From a bacterium (GTDB lineage Bacteria > Blakebacterota > Blakebacteria > Blakebacterales > Blakebacteraceae): DNA of 13,533 nucleotides. The stretch spans positions 1-13,533 of the forward strand of contig JALGWK010000086.1 in the NCBI GenBank assembly GCA_025774205.1, read 5' to 3'. Positions 1,997 to 12,880 of the stretch are shown in pieces. Each line of letters begins with the position of its first letter. Within the stretch, counting starts at the first letter, position 1. The notes under the pieces are model-generated. The model did not search any database. It was given only the letters and a program-made list of their open reading frames with translations, and had not been told where the DNA came from. The position numbers and the translations under genes were made by a program.

Positions 1997-2874
1997 TATC
2001 GGCCACCAGGAACGATCCGTTCATCCAGCAGGACGGTACCCTTGAAGAGGGGTACTTCGTTGGCGGCTCCCACCCGCCTTCTCTCGGTCCGGTCCGTATC
2101 CAGGATAAGGTTGGGCAGCAGCACCGCGCGGGTCAGTTCGAATCCCGCCGTAATCAGCCGAATGTCAGCACCGGGCAGGTTGTTTCGAAGCATGTTCGCC
2201 AGTGAGGCGAATACCTGCTCCATCTCCACGACGACACTCAGTCGCTGAGCGATCTCGTTCTCCCCGGTGTCGACCGTCACCAGGTCGTCCGTGAGTTCCC
2301 GCAGCGGTTCTTTCGAAGCGACGATACCGATCGAGAAATAGTGGGCCACACCCTGCTCGGTCGCGGTCCGCAGGGAGTCGAGTCGCTGGGTCGCGAGAGT
2401 GAGCCGGTACTCATCCGTCAGAATAGTGGTGTCACCCCGGTAGAGATAGATCAGCGACTCCTCCGTCAGATCGGGCGCGAGCTGCTGGAATCCGGCGATG
2501 ACCTGGGAATCACTTTCCGCCCTGGTAAGCAGGGTCGAAAGGGAATCAAGAAGGGAGGCGAGCAGGACGGTCTGCTGGATCTCGATCGCCTGATCCAGTT
2601 CAAGGACGGGTGGGACACCCCGGCGGGCCGCGTTACGCTGCTCCGCCAGTTCCTCATTGCTCCTCAGAATGTGGAAGGTGAAGGGGGCGACGACCGTCTC
2701 CAGGGCAATGTCACCCGCGTTCAGCGAATACCGGAAAGCCTGCCGCGTCGGGAAGAGCATCGCGATAAAAGCGATCAGCAGCACTCCGGTTACCCAGGGG
2801 ATGAGATCGAGGGTCTTTTCCGGCCCTGTTTCGATGCTCGTACGCTCTACCTTCTTCTCCGATGTCGATTTCAT
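1993..2874 (-). CDS. pgpH: Extracytoplasmic (7TMR-HDED) N-terminal half of the PgpH-type protein
   Basis: The 293-residue product starts with a cytoplasmic tail, one membrane helix (about 24-43, IPWVTGVLLIAFIAML) and then a large soluble domain. The family hallmarks of the 7TMR-HD extracytoplasmic domain are present: APFTFHILRSNEEL just after the helix, then RRGVPPVLELDQ, and at the end RRRVGAANEV followed by KGTVLLDERIVPGG. In intact relatives this last element ('GE-IV-G') is followed by about 20 more residues and the first of the seven helices. Here it ends after two residues (RY) with a TGA, and the helices continue in the -1 frame. The combined length with the next ORF (735 residues) is that of a normal single-chain family member. 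The start ATG lies 11 bases after phoH, with GAGG about nine bases upstream of it. The extracytoplasmic domain is thought to sense an unknown ligand. Confidence 0.8.
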   Translation of the reverse strand: MKSTSEKKVERTSIETGPEKTLDLIPWVTGVLLIAFIAMLFPTRQAFRYSLNAGDIALETVVAPFTFHILRSNEELAEQRNAARRGVPPVLELDQAIEIQQTVLLASLLDSLSTLLTRAESDSQVIAGFQQLAPDLTEESLIYLYRGDTTILTDEYRLTLATQRLDSLRTATEQGVAHYFSIGIVASKEPLRELTDDLVTVDTGENEIAQRLSVVVEMEQVFASLANMLRNNLPGADIRLITAGFELTRAVLLPNLILDTDRTERRRVGAANEVPLFKGTVLLDERIVPGGRY

Positions 2875-5099: not shown

Positions 5100-6427
5100 T
5101 CCACCTCGGTCCACTATTATTGTACCTCTTCCCCCCGACCTGTATTCGATCTCAGGTCGAGTCCCAGTTCAGCCAGCTGGTCGGCTGCCACCACGGCCGG
5201 ACTGCCATCCATCAGTGAGAGGGCGCTGGTGGTCTTGGGAAAGGCGATCACTTCCCGCAGTGAAGCAGAACCGGTCAGGAGCATCATCAGCCGGTCGAAA
5301 CCGAAGGCGATGCCGCCATGGGGCGGCGCGCCGTACCGGAGGGCCTCGAGGAGGAATCCGAATCGTTCTTCGGCCTCCCCGGGAGGCATTCCCAGCAACC
5401 CGAAGATCGCGGACTGTTCACGCAACCGATGGTTCCTGATACTGCCGCCGGCGATCTCGAAACCGTTGAGCACCACATCGTAGGCCCGCGCTTTCAGCCC
5501 CAGGATGGCCTGACGCAATTCTTCCGGGTATCCGCCTTCCTGGCCTGAGGTCTCGAGCTCATCGGTCAGCCGGACCAGTTCGGCGGGTTCGGCGGCGGAT
5601 GTGAAGGGGTGATGGACCGCGACCATCCGGCCTTCATCCTCGTCCCAGTCGAGCAGGGGAAATTCCCGCACCCAGGTGAACCGGAAGATCCCCTCGGGGA
5701 TCAGGTCGAGCCGGCGCGCCATCTCGAGTCGGAGAGCTCCCAGCGCGGCAAGAGCGATCGATCTCTGGTCGGCTACCAGGATGATCAGATCGCCATCAGA
5801 AGCCGCAAAACGGGTGATCAGGGATGCCTTCTCCTCGTCGGAGAGGAACTTGGCCACTCGGCCCTCCAGAGTTCCCTCCGCCACCAGGAGGGGAACGGCT
5901 CCTTTGGCCCCATAGACCTGCGCGATCCCGACCAGCTCGTCGACGTTCTTCCGGCTGAACTCTCCCACCCCGGGCGCGCGGAGACCGGACACGATACCGC
6001 CCTGTTCCAGCACACCACGGAAAACCTTGAACTCGCATTCCGGGAAGAGGTCGGAGGCATCTTCCAGTTCCATCGCAAAGCGGAGGTCAGGCCGGTCGGT
6101 GCCGAACCGACTCATCGCCTCCGCATAGGTGAGACGCGGGAAGGGCGTGGGTACATCGATGCCGCGGACTTCGCGCACCAGCGTGACGAGATACTCTTCC
6201 ACGACTTCGAGCACGTCTTCTTCGTCCACGAAGGACATCTCGACATCGACCTGGGTGAACTCGGGCTGGCGGTCAGCCCGGAGGTCCTCGTCCCGGAAAC
6301 AGCGGACGATCTGCATGTAGCGATCGAATCCGGCCATCATCAGCAGCTGCTTGTACTGCTGGGGAGACTGGGGGAGCGCGAAGAACCGCCCGTGATGGAG
6401 GCGGCTCGGCACGAGATAGTCACGGGC

Positions 6428-6438
6428 TCCCTCCTCCG
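6428..6438 (-). other. Second aspS junction: loss of class II motif 1
   Basis: At this point the frame reading [11 protein letters not shown] ends its match to AspRS and the frame reading [11 protein letters not shown] begins. The minus-strand sequence is CTGCAGCGGAGGAGGGAGCC. Short GGAGG repeats sit exactly at the join, as expected if a deletion ran between small direct repeats. About 33 conserved codons and the frame are lost. Confidence 0.7.
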
Positions 6439-6753
6439 CTGCAGCGGGGGGCGACGGAGATCCAGGTACCGGTATTTCAGGGCGAGTTCCTCACTCGCCG
6501 TCGCTTCCTCGTCGACCACGAAAGGCGGGGTCTCGGTTCCGGCCAGCTCCGCCACGGAAACGGCCTGGACCTCGCAGCCGCCGGTCGGCATCCCGGGGTT
6601 GACCGCCTCCCCGGGCCGCTCCCGGATGACGCCGGTCACCTGAAGGACATCCTCCAGCCTGGCTGCCTTCGCGACCTCCAGTCCGACCGGCCCGTCGGAT
6701 GGATCCACGGCGACCTGGATGACGCCCCATCGGTCCCGCAGATCGATGAAGAT

Positions 6754-6762
6754 CATCCCGCC
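6754..6762 (-). other. First aspS junction: GGCGGGATG at a short deletion
   Basis: The minus strand reads GTGGCGGGATGATC. GTG-GCG-GGA fits Val-Ala-Gly of 'VAGW', while GGG-ATG-ATC fits Gly-Met-Ile of 'GGMIFIDLRD', so GGCGGGATG can serve as either end. An intact gene with the usual W-V-x-RRRDHG between them could carry this 9-mer twice, and recombination or misjoining between the copies would remove about 31 bases. The length is inferred from family spacing, not seen. Confidence 0.6.
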
Positions 6763-6862
6763 ACGGTGACTTCCTGCCCCTTGAGTTCGGGACGGAGTTC
6801 ACCACAGGCATGCGTCCGGTATGATGTGACGATCGATCCCTGCTCCGGTGTGTCATGGTCAG

Positions 6863-8227
6863 TCATGCCGCTTCCCCCGGTCCGGGTCCTGACTGCTCGT
6901 CCTCATCGGTCCATTCATCCGGCTCCTCGTCGACCGCTTCCTCTTCCATCTGATCGAGTCTTTCGAGCACGGTGGTGACAATATCGGTGAAGGCTACCTG
7001 CTCTTCGTCACCACTGACCAGGTTCCTGAGGGTGATCGTATCGGCCTCGAGTTCCTTCTCCCCGGCGATCAGGGCCAGCAGCGCCTCGCGACGGTTCGCC
7101 TCCCGCATCTGCGCCTTCACCGACCGGTCGAAGAGTTCTGTCGTGCAGGCTACCCCGGCTCTTCTAAGCGTGTCGCAGATGGTGAAGAGCCGTTGCCGGG
7201 CCGCATCTCCGATATGGATCAGTGCCACCTCGCAGAGCGGTTCGAAGTCCAGATCGATCCCGGCGGCTTCCAGGGCCAGCATGATCCGCTCGATGCCGGC
7301 GGCAAAGCCTACTCCCGGCACCCGGTCCTTCCCTCCGATCATCTGCGCCAGGCCATCGTACCGTCCTCCACCGCAGATGGCGTCCTGGGCACCCAGGTCG
7401 GGACTGAGCACCTCAAAGGTGGTCCGCTCGTAGTAATCGAGACCGCGCACCATCCGGGGATCGACCGTGAAGGGGATCCCCCGGTCACCCAGCAGCGCCT
7501 GGACCGCCTCGAAGTGCGCCCGGCATTCGTCGTCGAGGTGGTCGAGCAGGCTCGGCGCCTTCGCCGTGGCCAGACGACATCCTTCGTTCTTGCAGTCGAG
7601 CACCCGCAGGGGATTGGTCCCGACGCGCTCCCGGCACTCCTCACAGAGGAGATCTTCGATCCCCGAGAGGAACTCCACCAGGAGTACCCGGTACTCAGCT
7701 CGACACTCCCGGCAGCCGAGACTGCCGATGTGGAGTGACCAGGTCTCGAGTCCGAGAGCGTCAAGGACGCTCAGGAAGAGCATGATGACCTCGGCGTCGG
7801 CTTCGGGAGCGTCGGTCCCGAGGACCTCGGCCCCGAACTGGTGGAACTGGCGGGCCCGCCCCTTCTGGGGCGCCTCCTGCCGGAACATCGGGCCCATGTA
7901 GTAGAGCTTGTCCACCGTACCCTGGGCCCCGAGACGGTGCTGGAGCCAGGCGCGGACAACCGAGGCCGTGCCCTCGGGCCGCAGGGTGATGCTCCGCCCG
8001 CCCTGGTCCGTGAAGGTGTACATCTCCTTGTTGACGATGTCGGTATGTTCCCCGATACCCCTGGCGAAGAGCTGGGTGTCTTCGAACACGGGAGTCCGGA
8101 TCTCACGGTACTGATAGAGCCCCATCACGTCCCTGATGAGGCCTTCAACGACATCCCAGGCTTCGGTCTCGCCCGGGAGGAGGTCATGCGTACCGCGGAT
8201 CGACTGCAGCGATCTGTTCTCCGTCAT
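6863..8227 (-). CDS. hisS: Histidyl-tRNA synthetase
   Basis: HisRS is a class II synthetase that charges tRNA-His in the cytoplasm. All hallmarks are present in 454 residues: RGTHDLLPGE (11-20), motif 1 region REIRTPVFED, DIVNKEMYTF, LRPEGTASVVRA (82-93), motif 2 MFRQEAPQKGRARQFHQFG (124-142), the HisA motif RGLDYYERTTFEV (261-273), GGGRYDGL, motif 3 GVGFAAGIERIML, and an anticodon-binding domain with SVKAQMREANR and AGEKELE. The catalytic core is uninterrupted, unlike the aspS gene it overlaps (ATGA, 6866-6863). Two extra features: a Cys-rich stretch with C172-x2-C175, C195-x2-C198 and C212-x4-C217, possibly a metal knot and, from memory, seen in HisRS of several phyla; and an acidic, low-complexity tail of about 30 residues (EEEAVDEEPDEWTDEDEQ). 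The start overlaps the vanZ-like stop by ATGA. Confidence 0.96.
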   Translation of the reverse strand: MTENRSLQSIRGTHDLLPGETEAWDVVEGLIRDVMGLYQYREIRTPVFEDTQLFARGIGEHTDIVNKEMYTFTDQGGRSITLRPEGTASVVRAWLQHRLGAQGTVDKLYYMGPMFRQEAPQKGRARQFHQFGAEVLGTDAPEADAEVIMLFLSVLDALGLETWSLHIGSLGCRECRAEYRVLLVEFLSGIEDLLCEECRERVGTNPLRVLDCKNEGCRLATAKAPSLLDHLDDECRAHFEAVQALLGDRGIPFTVDPRMVRGLDYYERTTFEVLSPDLGAQDAICGGGRYDGLAQMIGGKDRVPGVGFAAGIERIMLALEAAGIDLDFEPLCEVALIHIGDAARQRLFTICDTLRRAGVACTTELFDRSVKAQMREANRREALLALIAGEKELEADTITLRNLVSGDEEQVAFTDIVTTVLERLDQMEEEAVDEEPDEWTDEDEQSGPGPGEAA

Positions 8228-9180: not shown

Positions 9181-11928
9181 ATGGGCTATTTCAACTCGAA
9201 AAGGTCTCTGCCAATCCGAACCCTCCGGCTCATGTTCGCCCGGCGCGTCCTGGCCGCGACGATCCTCGTCCAGGTTCCGGGCGCTTTCTCTCCCGGACAG
9301 GTCTCTGCCCAGCAGGATCTCCTTTATGAATTCCATCCCGGCCAGGTGCCGATGTACAGACTTCCCTTCACCACCCCGGCCCGGCCGACGGTCGGAGTCG
9401 TTCTCAGCGGCGGGGGGAGTCGTGGACTGGCGCATATCGGTACCCTGCGGGCTCTCGAGGAAGCAGGATTGAGGCCCTCGTTCATCGCCGGGGTGAGCGC
9501 CGGAGCGGTGATCGGGGGGCTCTATGCCGCCGGCTTCACAACCGAAGAACTCGAGGAACTGGTCAACACCATCGACTGGCGGGACCTTTTCACCGACACG
9601 CCTGAGCGCACCAATCTCTTCATCCAACAGAAGGAAGAGCGGGCCACCTACATGCTGCAGGTCAGGTTCGAAGAGGGACGGCCCGTGCTGCCGACGAGTT
9701 ACATGACCGGTCAGAGGATCGGGGCCCTCTTCTCCGACCTCACCTTCAAGGGAGATTATCAGGCCGCAGGTGATTTCGACGCGCTCGCCATTCCCTTCCG
9801 CGCGGTTTCCACTGATCTGCTCACCGGCACCCGGGTCGTCATCGCGGATGGCACCCTGGCAGACGCGTTGATGGCTTCTACCGCCATACCTGTTGTGCTC
9901 TCGGCGAAGCGAAGGGGAGACCAGCTGCTGGTGGATGGCGGTCTCGTGGATAATCTGCCGGTGGGGGTGGTGGAAGAGATGGGCGCGGACATCATCGTGG
10001 CCTCCGACGTTTCAGCCGCCCTTCGGGACTCTACCCACCTCGGCAGTCCCGTGGAGGTTCTCGACCAGGTGATGAGCATCATGATGCGGGGGCCGAACGC
10101 GCTCTCACTCGAGCGCGCCGACCTGGTCGTGGCACCAGCCCTCGGGAACCATTACTCAAGTGATTTCTCCGGTCTCGACACCCTCGTCACCGCGGGGTAT
10201 CAGGCTGCCAGGGCAGCGATCGCCCGGTGGGAGGGAAGCCACGATTCCCGTCATCTCATCAGGCTGGCAGGGGCGCACCCCGAACACGGACCCACTCTCC
10301 GGGTCACGGCCGCCGAGGCGGAGGGTGGCAGCGAGGCTCAGCGGGAGCGTGCCCTCGGTCTTGTCGAACGGGAGCTGGTCGGACGCAGTGTCGATCCGGC
10401 AGGGCTGGAAGCAACCGCGGTGCGGCTGCTGCAGGATGGCTCTCTCGACGACGTGGTCGTGAGGGCCTTCAGGGCCCCCCGTCCGGCCATGGGGACGGAA
10501 ACTCCGATCACCCTCACGGTGATTCTGACAAGCCGGCCCGACATCACCGAGATCAGGTTCGAAGGGGCAAATCTCTACGATCATCCGGAACTGCGGCGCG
10601 CCCTCTCGTCCACGGTCGGAGAACCGGTCGACCGTTTCACGGTCGCTTCCGACATGCGCACCCTGGAACGGTACCACCAGGATCGGGGCTTTCCGCTCGC
10701 CCTGGTCAGGGACGTGCGCTTCAGCCCGCGCACAGGAGTCCTGACCTTCGTACTCGATGAGGGACGGATCGATGAGATCCGTATCGAGGGGCTGGTTCAG
10801 ACCCATGAGGACCTGATCCGTCGCGACCTCCCGATCATGATCGGGGAGCCGTTCGGACGTCATTCGATCCGCCAGATGATCGATGACATCTACAGCACCG
10901 GTCTTTTCGAACGGGTCTCCATCCGCCCGGAACGGACCGGCCGGGATGGATTGACCATCGTCGTCGAAGTTGAGGAGCGCCCGCGACACGTGGCCCGGAT
11001 CGGTCTCCACTACCTCGAGGAGCAGAAGACCGAAGGGTTCCTTGAATACCTCAACGAGAACCTGCTGGGCCGCGGCGGGAGGATGAGCGTGCGCGCGCTC
11101 ACGGGCAGTCGGCGTGACGCGATCGGCATGCGCTCCCGGATCGATCGGGTATTCCGGACCTATCTGACCTGGCAGCTCGAGGCAGGGTATGGACGGGAGG
11201 AGATACACACCTACCAGGGTGAGGAACTGACCGGCACCTATCAGGCCGAGAGTTACCACATCGCCGCCGCGATAGGTCATCAGGTCCGACGGCTGGGACT
11301 TCTCAGTGTCGGCTTCCGGGCTGATAAACTGGTGACCGACGGCATCAGCGGCATCATCTCACGCGATGCAACCCACCAGTTCAGGGAATTTGAACTGAGG
11401 AGCGTCATCGACACCCAGGACCGGACTCCCTTCCCGACCGAAGGTGTCCGCCATGAGTTCTCCTACGTGACCGCCTCGGATGTCCATGGCCTGGACCCTG
11501 TCACTCACGTGCGGCTCTTGCTGTCGATGGAATCGTTCCACACCAGCGCACGGCACACCTTCCATCCGAAATTTCTCTTCGGAACCGCCGACAACACCAT
11601 GCCGTTCGCGCGCTGGTACCGGCTCGGCGGTCTCGATTCCTTCTATGGATATTCCCGGGACCAGCTGCGCGGGCGCCAGATCCTGCTCCTGTCGGGTGAG
11701 TACCGCTATCTCATCCCGTGGGGGCCGGTCGCTCCGCTGCACCTCTCGATGCGATTCGATTGGGGGGGAGGCTGGGAGGAGGCGGATAACGCCGCCTTCA
11801 CCGACATGATCAGCGGCTTCGGCGTCAAGGCGTCACTCGACAGTCCGCTGGGGCCTCTCGAGATCGCCTGGGGAATCAGGGAAGGCGGTCACAGCCGGGT
11901 CTACGCCGCCCTCGGGTTCCGCTTCTGA
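9181..11928 (+). CDS. Patatin-like phospholipase fused to POTRA domains and an Omp85 outer-membrane barrel
   Basis: This 915-residue protein has the layout of type Vd secretion proteins (PlpD, FplA): signal peptide, patatin lipase, POTRA, 16-strand barrel. The signal ends near VSA-QQ (about 43). The patatin domain (about 67-350) has the oxyanion loop GGGSRG (77-82), nucleophile Ser106 in GVSAG and catalytic Asp242 in VDGGLVDNLP, so it should be an active Ser/Asp-dyad lipase. I see three POTRA-like repeats: about 372-448 (ALGLVERELVGRSVDPAGLE), 452-527 (ITEIRFEGANLYDHPELRRA) and 530-606 (IDEIRIEGLVQTHEDLIRRD). The barrel (about 608-915) ends in ALGFRF, a C-terminal Phe as for BAM substrates. 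FplA has one POTRA. No Shine-Dalgarno precedes ATG 9181; a second ATG at 9232 (MFARRVLAATILV) would give a more typical signal peptide. The role may be lipase secretion or outer-membrane lipid turnover; which cannot be told from sequence. Confidence 0.92.
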   Translation: MGYFNSKRSLPIRTLRLMFARRVLAATILVQVPGAFSPGQVSAQQDLLYEFHPGQVPMYRLPFTTPARPTVGVVLSGGGSRGLAHIGTLRALEEAGLRPSFIAGVSAGAVIGGLYAAGFTTEELEELVNTIDWRDLFTDTPERTNLFIQQKEERATYMLQVRFEEGRPVLPTSYMTGQRIGALFSDLTFKGDYQAAGDFDALAIPFRAVSTDLLTGTRVVIADGTLADALMASTAIPVVLSAKRRGDQLLVDGGLVDNLPVGVVEEMGADIIVASDVSAALRDSTHLGSPVEVLDQVMSIMMRGPNALSLERADLVVAPALGNHYSSDFSGLDTLVTAGYQAARAAIARWEGSHDSRHLIRLAGAHPEHGPTLRVTAAEAEGGSEAQRERALGLVERELVGRSVDPAGLEATAVRLLQDGSLDDVVVRAFRAPRPAMGTETPITLTVILTSRPDITEIRFEGANLYDHPELRRALSSTVGEPVDRFTVASDMRTLERYHQDRGFPLALVRDVRFSPRTGVLTFVLDEGRIDEIRIEGLVQTHEDLIRRDLPIMIGEPFGRHSIRQMIDDIYSTGLFERVSIRPERTGRDGLTIVVEVEERPRHVARIGLHYLEEQKTEGFLEYLNENLLGRGGRMSVRALTGSRRDAIGMRSRIDRVFRTYLTWQLEAGYGREEIHTYQGEELTGTYQAESYHIAAAIGHQVRRLGLLSVGFRADKLVTDGISGIISRDATHQFREFELRSVIDTQDRTPFPTEGVRHEFSYVTASDVHGLDPVTHVRLLLSMESFHTSARHTFHPKFLFGTADNTMPFARWYRLGGLDSFYGYSRDQLRGRQILLLSGEYRYLIPWGPVAPLHLSMRFDWGGGWEEADNAAFTDMISGFGVKASLDSPLGPLEIAWGIREGGHSRVYAALGFRF

Positions 11929-11940
11929 TCCGATCGGATC
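11927..11940. other. 14-base palindrome between the convergent patatin and DUF2520 genes
   Basis: GATCCGATCGGATC is a perfect palindrome that overlaps the patatin stop codon. The two genes converge with 28 bases between their stops, so a shared transcription end is expected here. A stem without a loop and without T-runs is a poor terminator, so the assignment is uncertain. Confidence 0.25.
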
Positions 11941-11956
11941 CGCTCAGGTACGTGTC

Positions 11957-12880
11957 TCACTCGTCCAGCAGGGAGTGCAGTCTGCCGGCGGTCTCACCGT
12001 CGAGCTGTCCGCTCTCTTCCGCGATCCGGAGGGTGGTCAGCACGATCTGACGGTAGAGCGGCTCCAGGTCGGGATTCATCTTCGAGATCACTTCCAGGTG
12101 ATCAGCAACGACCTGCGCATCTCCACGGCTGACCGGTCCGGTGAGACCTCCGGGCAGGCCGTGGGATTCGACCGCGTCGATCGCGGCTCGCATGCCGGGC
12201 AGGATCCCCCGGGTCATGAACTCCCGTTCGAGGTCCATCGAGTCACCCATCCGGTCCACCGCCCAGGCGAGCGCCATGACACCGGTCAGCGCCATCACCC
12301 CGGCCGCGTGGTAGGCGCTCTTCAGGTCGGGAGCAAGCCTGATCGGATGGGCGCTGAGCAGAAGCGCGAGCGATTCGCCGAACGGGAACGCCCGATCATC
12401 TCCCTCGACACTGACCAGGGCATCACTGAAGTGCCGCAGATCCCGATCCCGGTCGGGGAATGGTTTGAGAGGATGGAAGGAGAGACGGAGAGCGTGCTCT
12501 TTCGGATCGGCACTCTCCAGGAGGGATGATGGCAGGGCGGCAGAGGTCTGGATCAGACACGATCCGCGTCCCAGGCTGGTGTCTGCCAGCGAAAGCACGA
12601 CCGCTTCAAGTTCCCGGTCGGGAGGAGTGAGCACGATCAGGCGGGCCCGATCGCCCAGCCCGTCGAACGGTTCGACCATCACCTCGGCGCCCAGTTCCTG
12701 CGCCAGCGATTCGGCCGAACCCCGGTCTCCGCCGGCGACGGCCACCGCGGGAAATCCAAGTTCACTCAGCGCCCGGCTCAGGGCACAGCCGACCCGTCCC
12801 GGTCCGAGGCAGGCGAAGGGCCATTCGCGGGGCTGTATCCCACGGGACAGGTTCCATTCCGGCCATGAACGATCGATCAT
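11957..12880 (-). CDS. Rossmann-like and DUF2520 domain protein
   Basis: The 307-residue protein begins with a dinucleotide-binding fold (CLGPGRVGCALSRAL, GPGRVG at 26-31; LIVLTPPDRELEAV at 81-94), like 6-phosphogluconate dehydrogenase or NADP-oxidoreductase F420-type proteins. The DUF2520 helical domain follows, with LSFHPLKPF (133-141), SAYHAAGVMA (188-197) and LTGPVSRGD (246-254), all standard for the family. No reaction has been firmly assigned to this family; oxidoreductase activity is inferred from the fold. The ATG overlaps the hflX stop (ATGA) and GGGAGG stands four bases before it, so the start is secure. It converges with the patatin gene. Related genes are often found near pantothenate biosynthesis genes, none of which is in view. 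Confidence 0.88.
   Translation of the reverse strand: MIDRSWPEWNLSRGIQPREWPFACLGPGRVGCALSRALSELGFPAVAVAGGDRGSAESLAQELGAEVMVEPFDGLGDRARLIVLTPPDRELEAVVLSLADTSLGRGSCLIQTSAALPSSLLESADPKEHALRLSFHPLKPFPDRDRDLRHFSDALVSVEGDDRAFPFGESLALLLSAHPIRLAPDLKSAYHAAGVMALTGVMALAWAVDRMGDSMDLEREFMTRGILPGMRAAIDAVESHGLPGGLTGPVSRGDAQVVADHLEVISKMNPDLEPLYRQIVLTTLRIAEESGQLDGETAGRLHSLLDE

Follow-up and report, generated by a model that had tools for sequence, protein, structure and literature searches.

A split aspS in a metagenome-assembled genome is almost certainly the product of assembly seams

The window that we analyzed, 13,533 nucleotides long, is the whole of one contig (C292) of a metagenome-assembled genome (MAG), here called G000, which comprises 3.09 Mb in 527 contigs at 85.9% completeness and 4.8% contamination. 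Immediately after hisS (8227–6863), also on the minus strand, lies a bacterial-type aspS gene (6866–5117), which encodes aspartyl-tRNA synthetase (AspRS) and is split into three frames (Table 1).

The family profile TIGR00459 (aspS_bact) matched the contig as two pieces only, in different frames: profile positions 31–138 corresponded to 6765–6433 and positions 169–581 to 6442–5159, with positions 139–168 unmatched between them. The third piece alone scored 489 bits, above the curated TIGR00459 cut-off of 373.85, and 525 bits against NF001750. It is continuous over profile positions 169–581, and motifs 2 and 3 and the bacterial GAD insertion could be read in its translation. A single open frame of about 590 codons, as found in other genomes, was absent from the assembled contig, and so was class II motif 1, whose 100 nt are missing at the second seam. 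In its match to the family over the OB-fold, catalytic and GAD parts, and in its position after hisS as in relatives, the gene resembles any bacterial-type AspRS; it differs only as assembled, with 31 and 100 nt absent and the coding sequence in three frames.

Table 1. Pieces of aspS, seams and duplication sites (positions in the window unless a contig is named)
Feature	Position	Strand	Basis
aspS first piece, N-terminal ~35 codons, ATG at 6866	6760–6866	-	sequence read; aligned with G003 aspS start
aspS second piece, remaining OB fold and linker	6435–6759	-	TIGR00459 profile 31–138; NCBIfam NF001750 36–143
aspS third piece, catalytic domain (motifs 2 and 3, GAD insertion), ends at stop codon	5117–6434	-	TIGR00459 169–581; NF001750
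Seam 1, loss of 31 nt and frame shift compared with G003, OB-fold W-V-x-RRDHGG stretch	6759–6760	-	DNA alignment
Seam 2, loss of 100 nt and frame shift compared with G001 and G003, class II motif 1 region	6434–6435	-	DNA alignment
Seam 3, loss of 85 nt compared with G001, PgpH-like 7TM-7TMR_HD protein	2014–2015	-	base-level alignment
Tandem duplication sites	L156 (C345) 234–327; L168 (C10) 375–418; twelve further sites		exact two-copy

An aspS match was present in all 41 genomes searched. DNA alignment with a genome of the same family (G003) placed the loss of 31 nt immediately after ...GTCACCGTGGC, and alignment with both G003 and a genome of the same genus (G001) placed the loss of 100 nt after ...CTGCAGCGGA. 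Together with the profile matches, these alignments bore out the original prediction, which had located the two breaks, estimated that 31 and about 100 bases were missing, and named the OB fold and motif 1 as the elements lost.

The relatives do not have these gaps in common. In G001 one open frame of 577 codons spans seam 2, and in G003 the frame is open across both seams, as far as the end of its contig. Both gaps are therefore particular to the G000 assembly, and we rejected the idea, raised with the original prediction, that they mark a real protein variant common to close relatives. The G001 gene is itself a full-length frame apart from a contig gap of its own at the site of seam 1: contig C11 ends ~60 nt into aspS, and C174 (which contains the public contig JALGVQ010000120.1 of MAG Meg19_1012_Bin_119) starts just past the seam. 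This stretch was thus hard to assemble twice, which could hint at something special about the site.

The same kind of break occurs elsewhere in the MAG. Seam 3 divides a 7TM-HD protein, 754 aa long and unbroken in G001, into ORFs at 1993–2874 (7TMR-HDED part) and 668–1996 (7TM-HD part). A codon-usage scan of sampled G000 contigs (346 kb in 41 readable contigs), followed by a family scan of chosen pairs, yielded four further cases: secA (C23), hslU (C345), an aldehyde dehydrogenase (C115) and a beta-CASP nuclease (C225). In all four, a single family profile is matched by two frames in the right order, but some of its residues are lacking between the two matches. By DNA alignment with relatives, the losses amount to 20, 32, 97 and 10 nt, respectively, and the homologues in relatives, including G001, are open at all four breaks. 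SecA is essential in bacteria, and its gene, like aspS, is single-copy in this MAG. On the secA contig (L170), deletions of 43, 94, 139 and 20 nt, one of them in secA, occur within 5 kb, at 11443, 12573, 15117 and 16258. The codon scan also flagged some frame changes between genes that, once read, were simply ordinary neighbors; these pairs were left out of the count.

When G001 reading frames were compared with G000 contigs, and after removal of duplicates and ambiguous rows, we counted 11 clear breaks in ~29,000 aligned residues, a figure that is not an unbiased rate, as the G000 contigs were partly picked for breaks already suspected. In the reverse comparison, of G000 frames with G001 contigs, there were none in ~30,000 residues; the one row listed there was discounted, being an antisense ORF that overlies the aldehyde dehydrogenase seam. 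Since this control covered the same genes, the difference between the two genomes remains valid. At base level, eight of the 11 breaks were deletions (10, 20, 32, 43, 85, 94, 100 and 139 nt) and two were exact tandem duplications, of 47 nt on C345 and of 22 nt on C10; the remaining one was an insertion of 1 nt. The tally leaves out two ambiguous indels on C50 (L173, near 9758 and 10654).

Duplications of this type were also more frequent across the sampled G000 contigs: exact, full-period, two-copy tandem duplications numbered 14 in 346 kb, versus 2 in 211 kb of G001. Their periods range from 15 to 66 nt, and 10 of the 14 are not divisible by three, close to the two thirds that would be expected without selection on the reading frame. 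Such exact two-copy duplications are the mark that unmerged contig ends leave behind. The scan excluded two true repeat arrays (L140 and L184); the one in L184 (C130, about 11785–12110) is a 45-nt array that probably encodes a repetitive protein.

Losses and exact doublings thus occur regardless of gene and frame, and far more often than in the independent assembly of a relative. The combination of dropped and doubled bases, random phase and essential genes among those hit indicates that an assembler or scaffolder placed contig ends directly against each other. In the mechanism we propose, a contig built from shorter pieces would lose bases wherever ends were joined without the true intervening sequence, the gap being closed to zero, and would acquire a doubled stretch wherever ends were joined without merging their true overlap; both outcomes would be expected from butting neighboring contig ends with a wrong gap estimate. 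In aspS, two such seams would account for the missing 31 and 100 nt, and with them for the frame shifts and for the loss of motif 1 and part of the OB fold.

We therefore regard both aspS breaks as assembly artefacts, with a probability of roughly 0.96. On this reading the gene is an ordinary aspS, and the organism almost certainly carries it intact after hisS, as its relatives do. Of the two explanations offered in the original prediction, deletion-type errors in the contig are strongly supported: the same defect recurs, alongside exact tandem duplications, throughout the MAG, other essential genes included, but not in its sister. The other, a second aspS or an aspS/gatCAB route with decay just beginning in this copy, was not supported. 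The practical warning is that spurious frameshifts and motif losses affect many G000 genes, core genes among them, and that any claim of gene loss, gene splitting, a pseudogene or unusual domain architecture drawn from this MAG should first be compared with the sister genome.

Local assembly errors in MAGs, along with joins that leave duplicated flanks, were described by Chen et al. 2020 (PMC7111523), with IDBA-UD suspected in particular. The errors reported there are unsupported joins within scaffolds that disrupt coding sequences, and joins that duplicate overlapping flanks; those proposed for G000 would be of the same kinds. In our case, however, they were recognized by comparison with a sister genome rather than by read mapping, and the duplicated flanks have no N between them.

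A real and recent pseudogenization of aspS, its function being supplied by another AspRS or by the indirect GatCAB route, is very improbable. The frame breaks and the loss of motif 1 would indeed abolish function and, at the completeness and contamination of this MAG, a second copy could be missing from it and an intact aspS may lie elsewhere in the organism. However, a profile search of the MAG (about 86% complete, so that absence is weak evidence) found no second AspRS, and a 95-aa G001 probe for the missing motif 1 stretch matched only the C292 remainder and the gene for asparaginyl-tRNA synthetase (AsnRS). The latter, on C431, was considered as a second or nondiscriminating AspRS and rejected: the curated models NF003037 (537 bits) and TIGR00457 (454 bits), both above cut-off, identify it as AsnRS, and its score of 363 bits against NF003483 (aspartate--tRNA(Asn) ligase) is just over the cut-off and far below the AsnRS models.

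The indirect route fared no better, as gatB was not found in the G000 MAG; moreover, GatCAB makes Asn- and Gln-tRNA, not Asp-tRNA. A full gatB was likewise not found in the four genomes of the family. In G001, a gatB-like match of 94.6 bits, below cut-off, lies within a 649-aa frame (C207, 5948–6526; L126). Nor are the breaks confined to a gene that is dispensable or has a redundant copy: core genes throughout this assembly are broken in the same way, and no redundant AspRS was found. To produce identical defects in secA, hslU and other genes, many damaging mutations would have to arise simultaneously, and the concurrent decay of aspS, secA, hslU and further genes would not be expected to be sustained by a living bacterium. 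Least probable of all is that the organism lives with a broken aspS and charges tRNA-Asp with an undetected, unrelated enzyme.

It is also very improbable that the deletions and duplications arose during library preparation, through PCR or whole-genome amplification jumps at hairpins, and became fixed in the consensus through low coverage. Some seams do fall at palindromes, such as CCGCTGCAGCGG at 6435 and TCCGATCGGA in secA, and the G001 assembly likewise breaks at seam 1. However, palindrome length at ten seams showed no clear excess over random positions (mean 6.4 versus 5.7, P about 0.17), on which ground we rejected hairpins or palindromes as the cause of the seams; folding energy there was also close to random, and contig ends left unmerged explain exact tandem doubling more naturally.

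We infer that a scaffolding or local-assembly step, and not library chemistry, made the seams. A run of 28 N within a reading frame on C110 (L181, 3397–3424), probably a scaffold gap, suggests that a scaffolding step was used.
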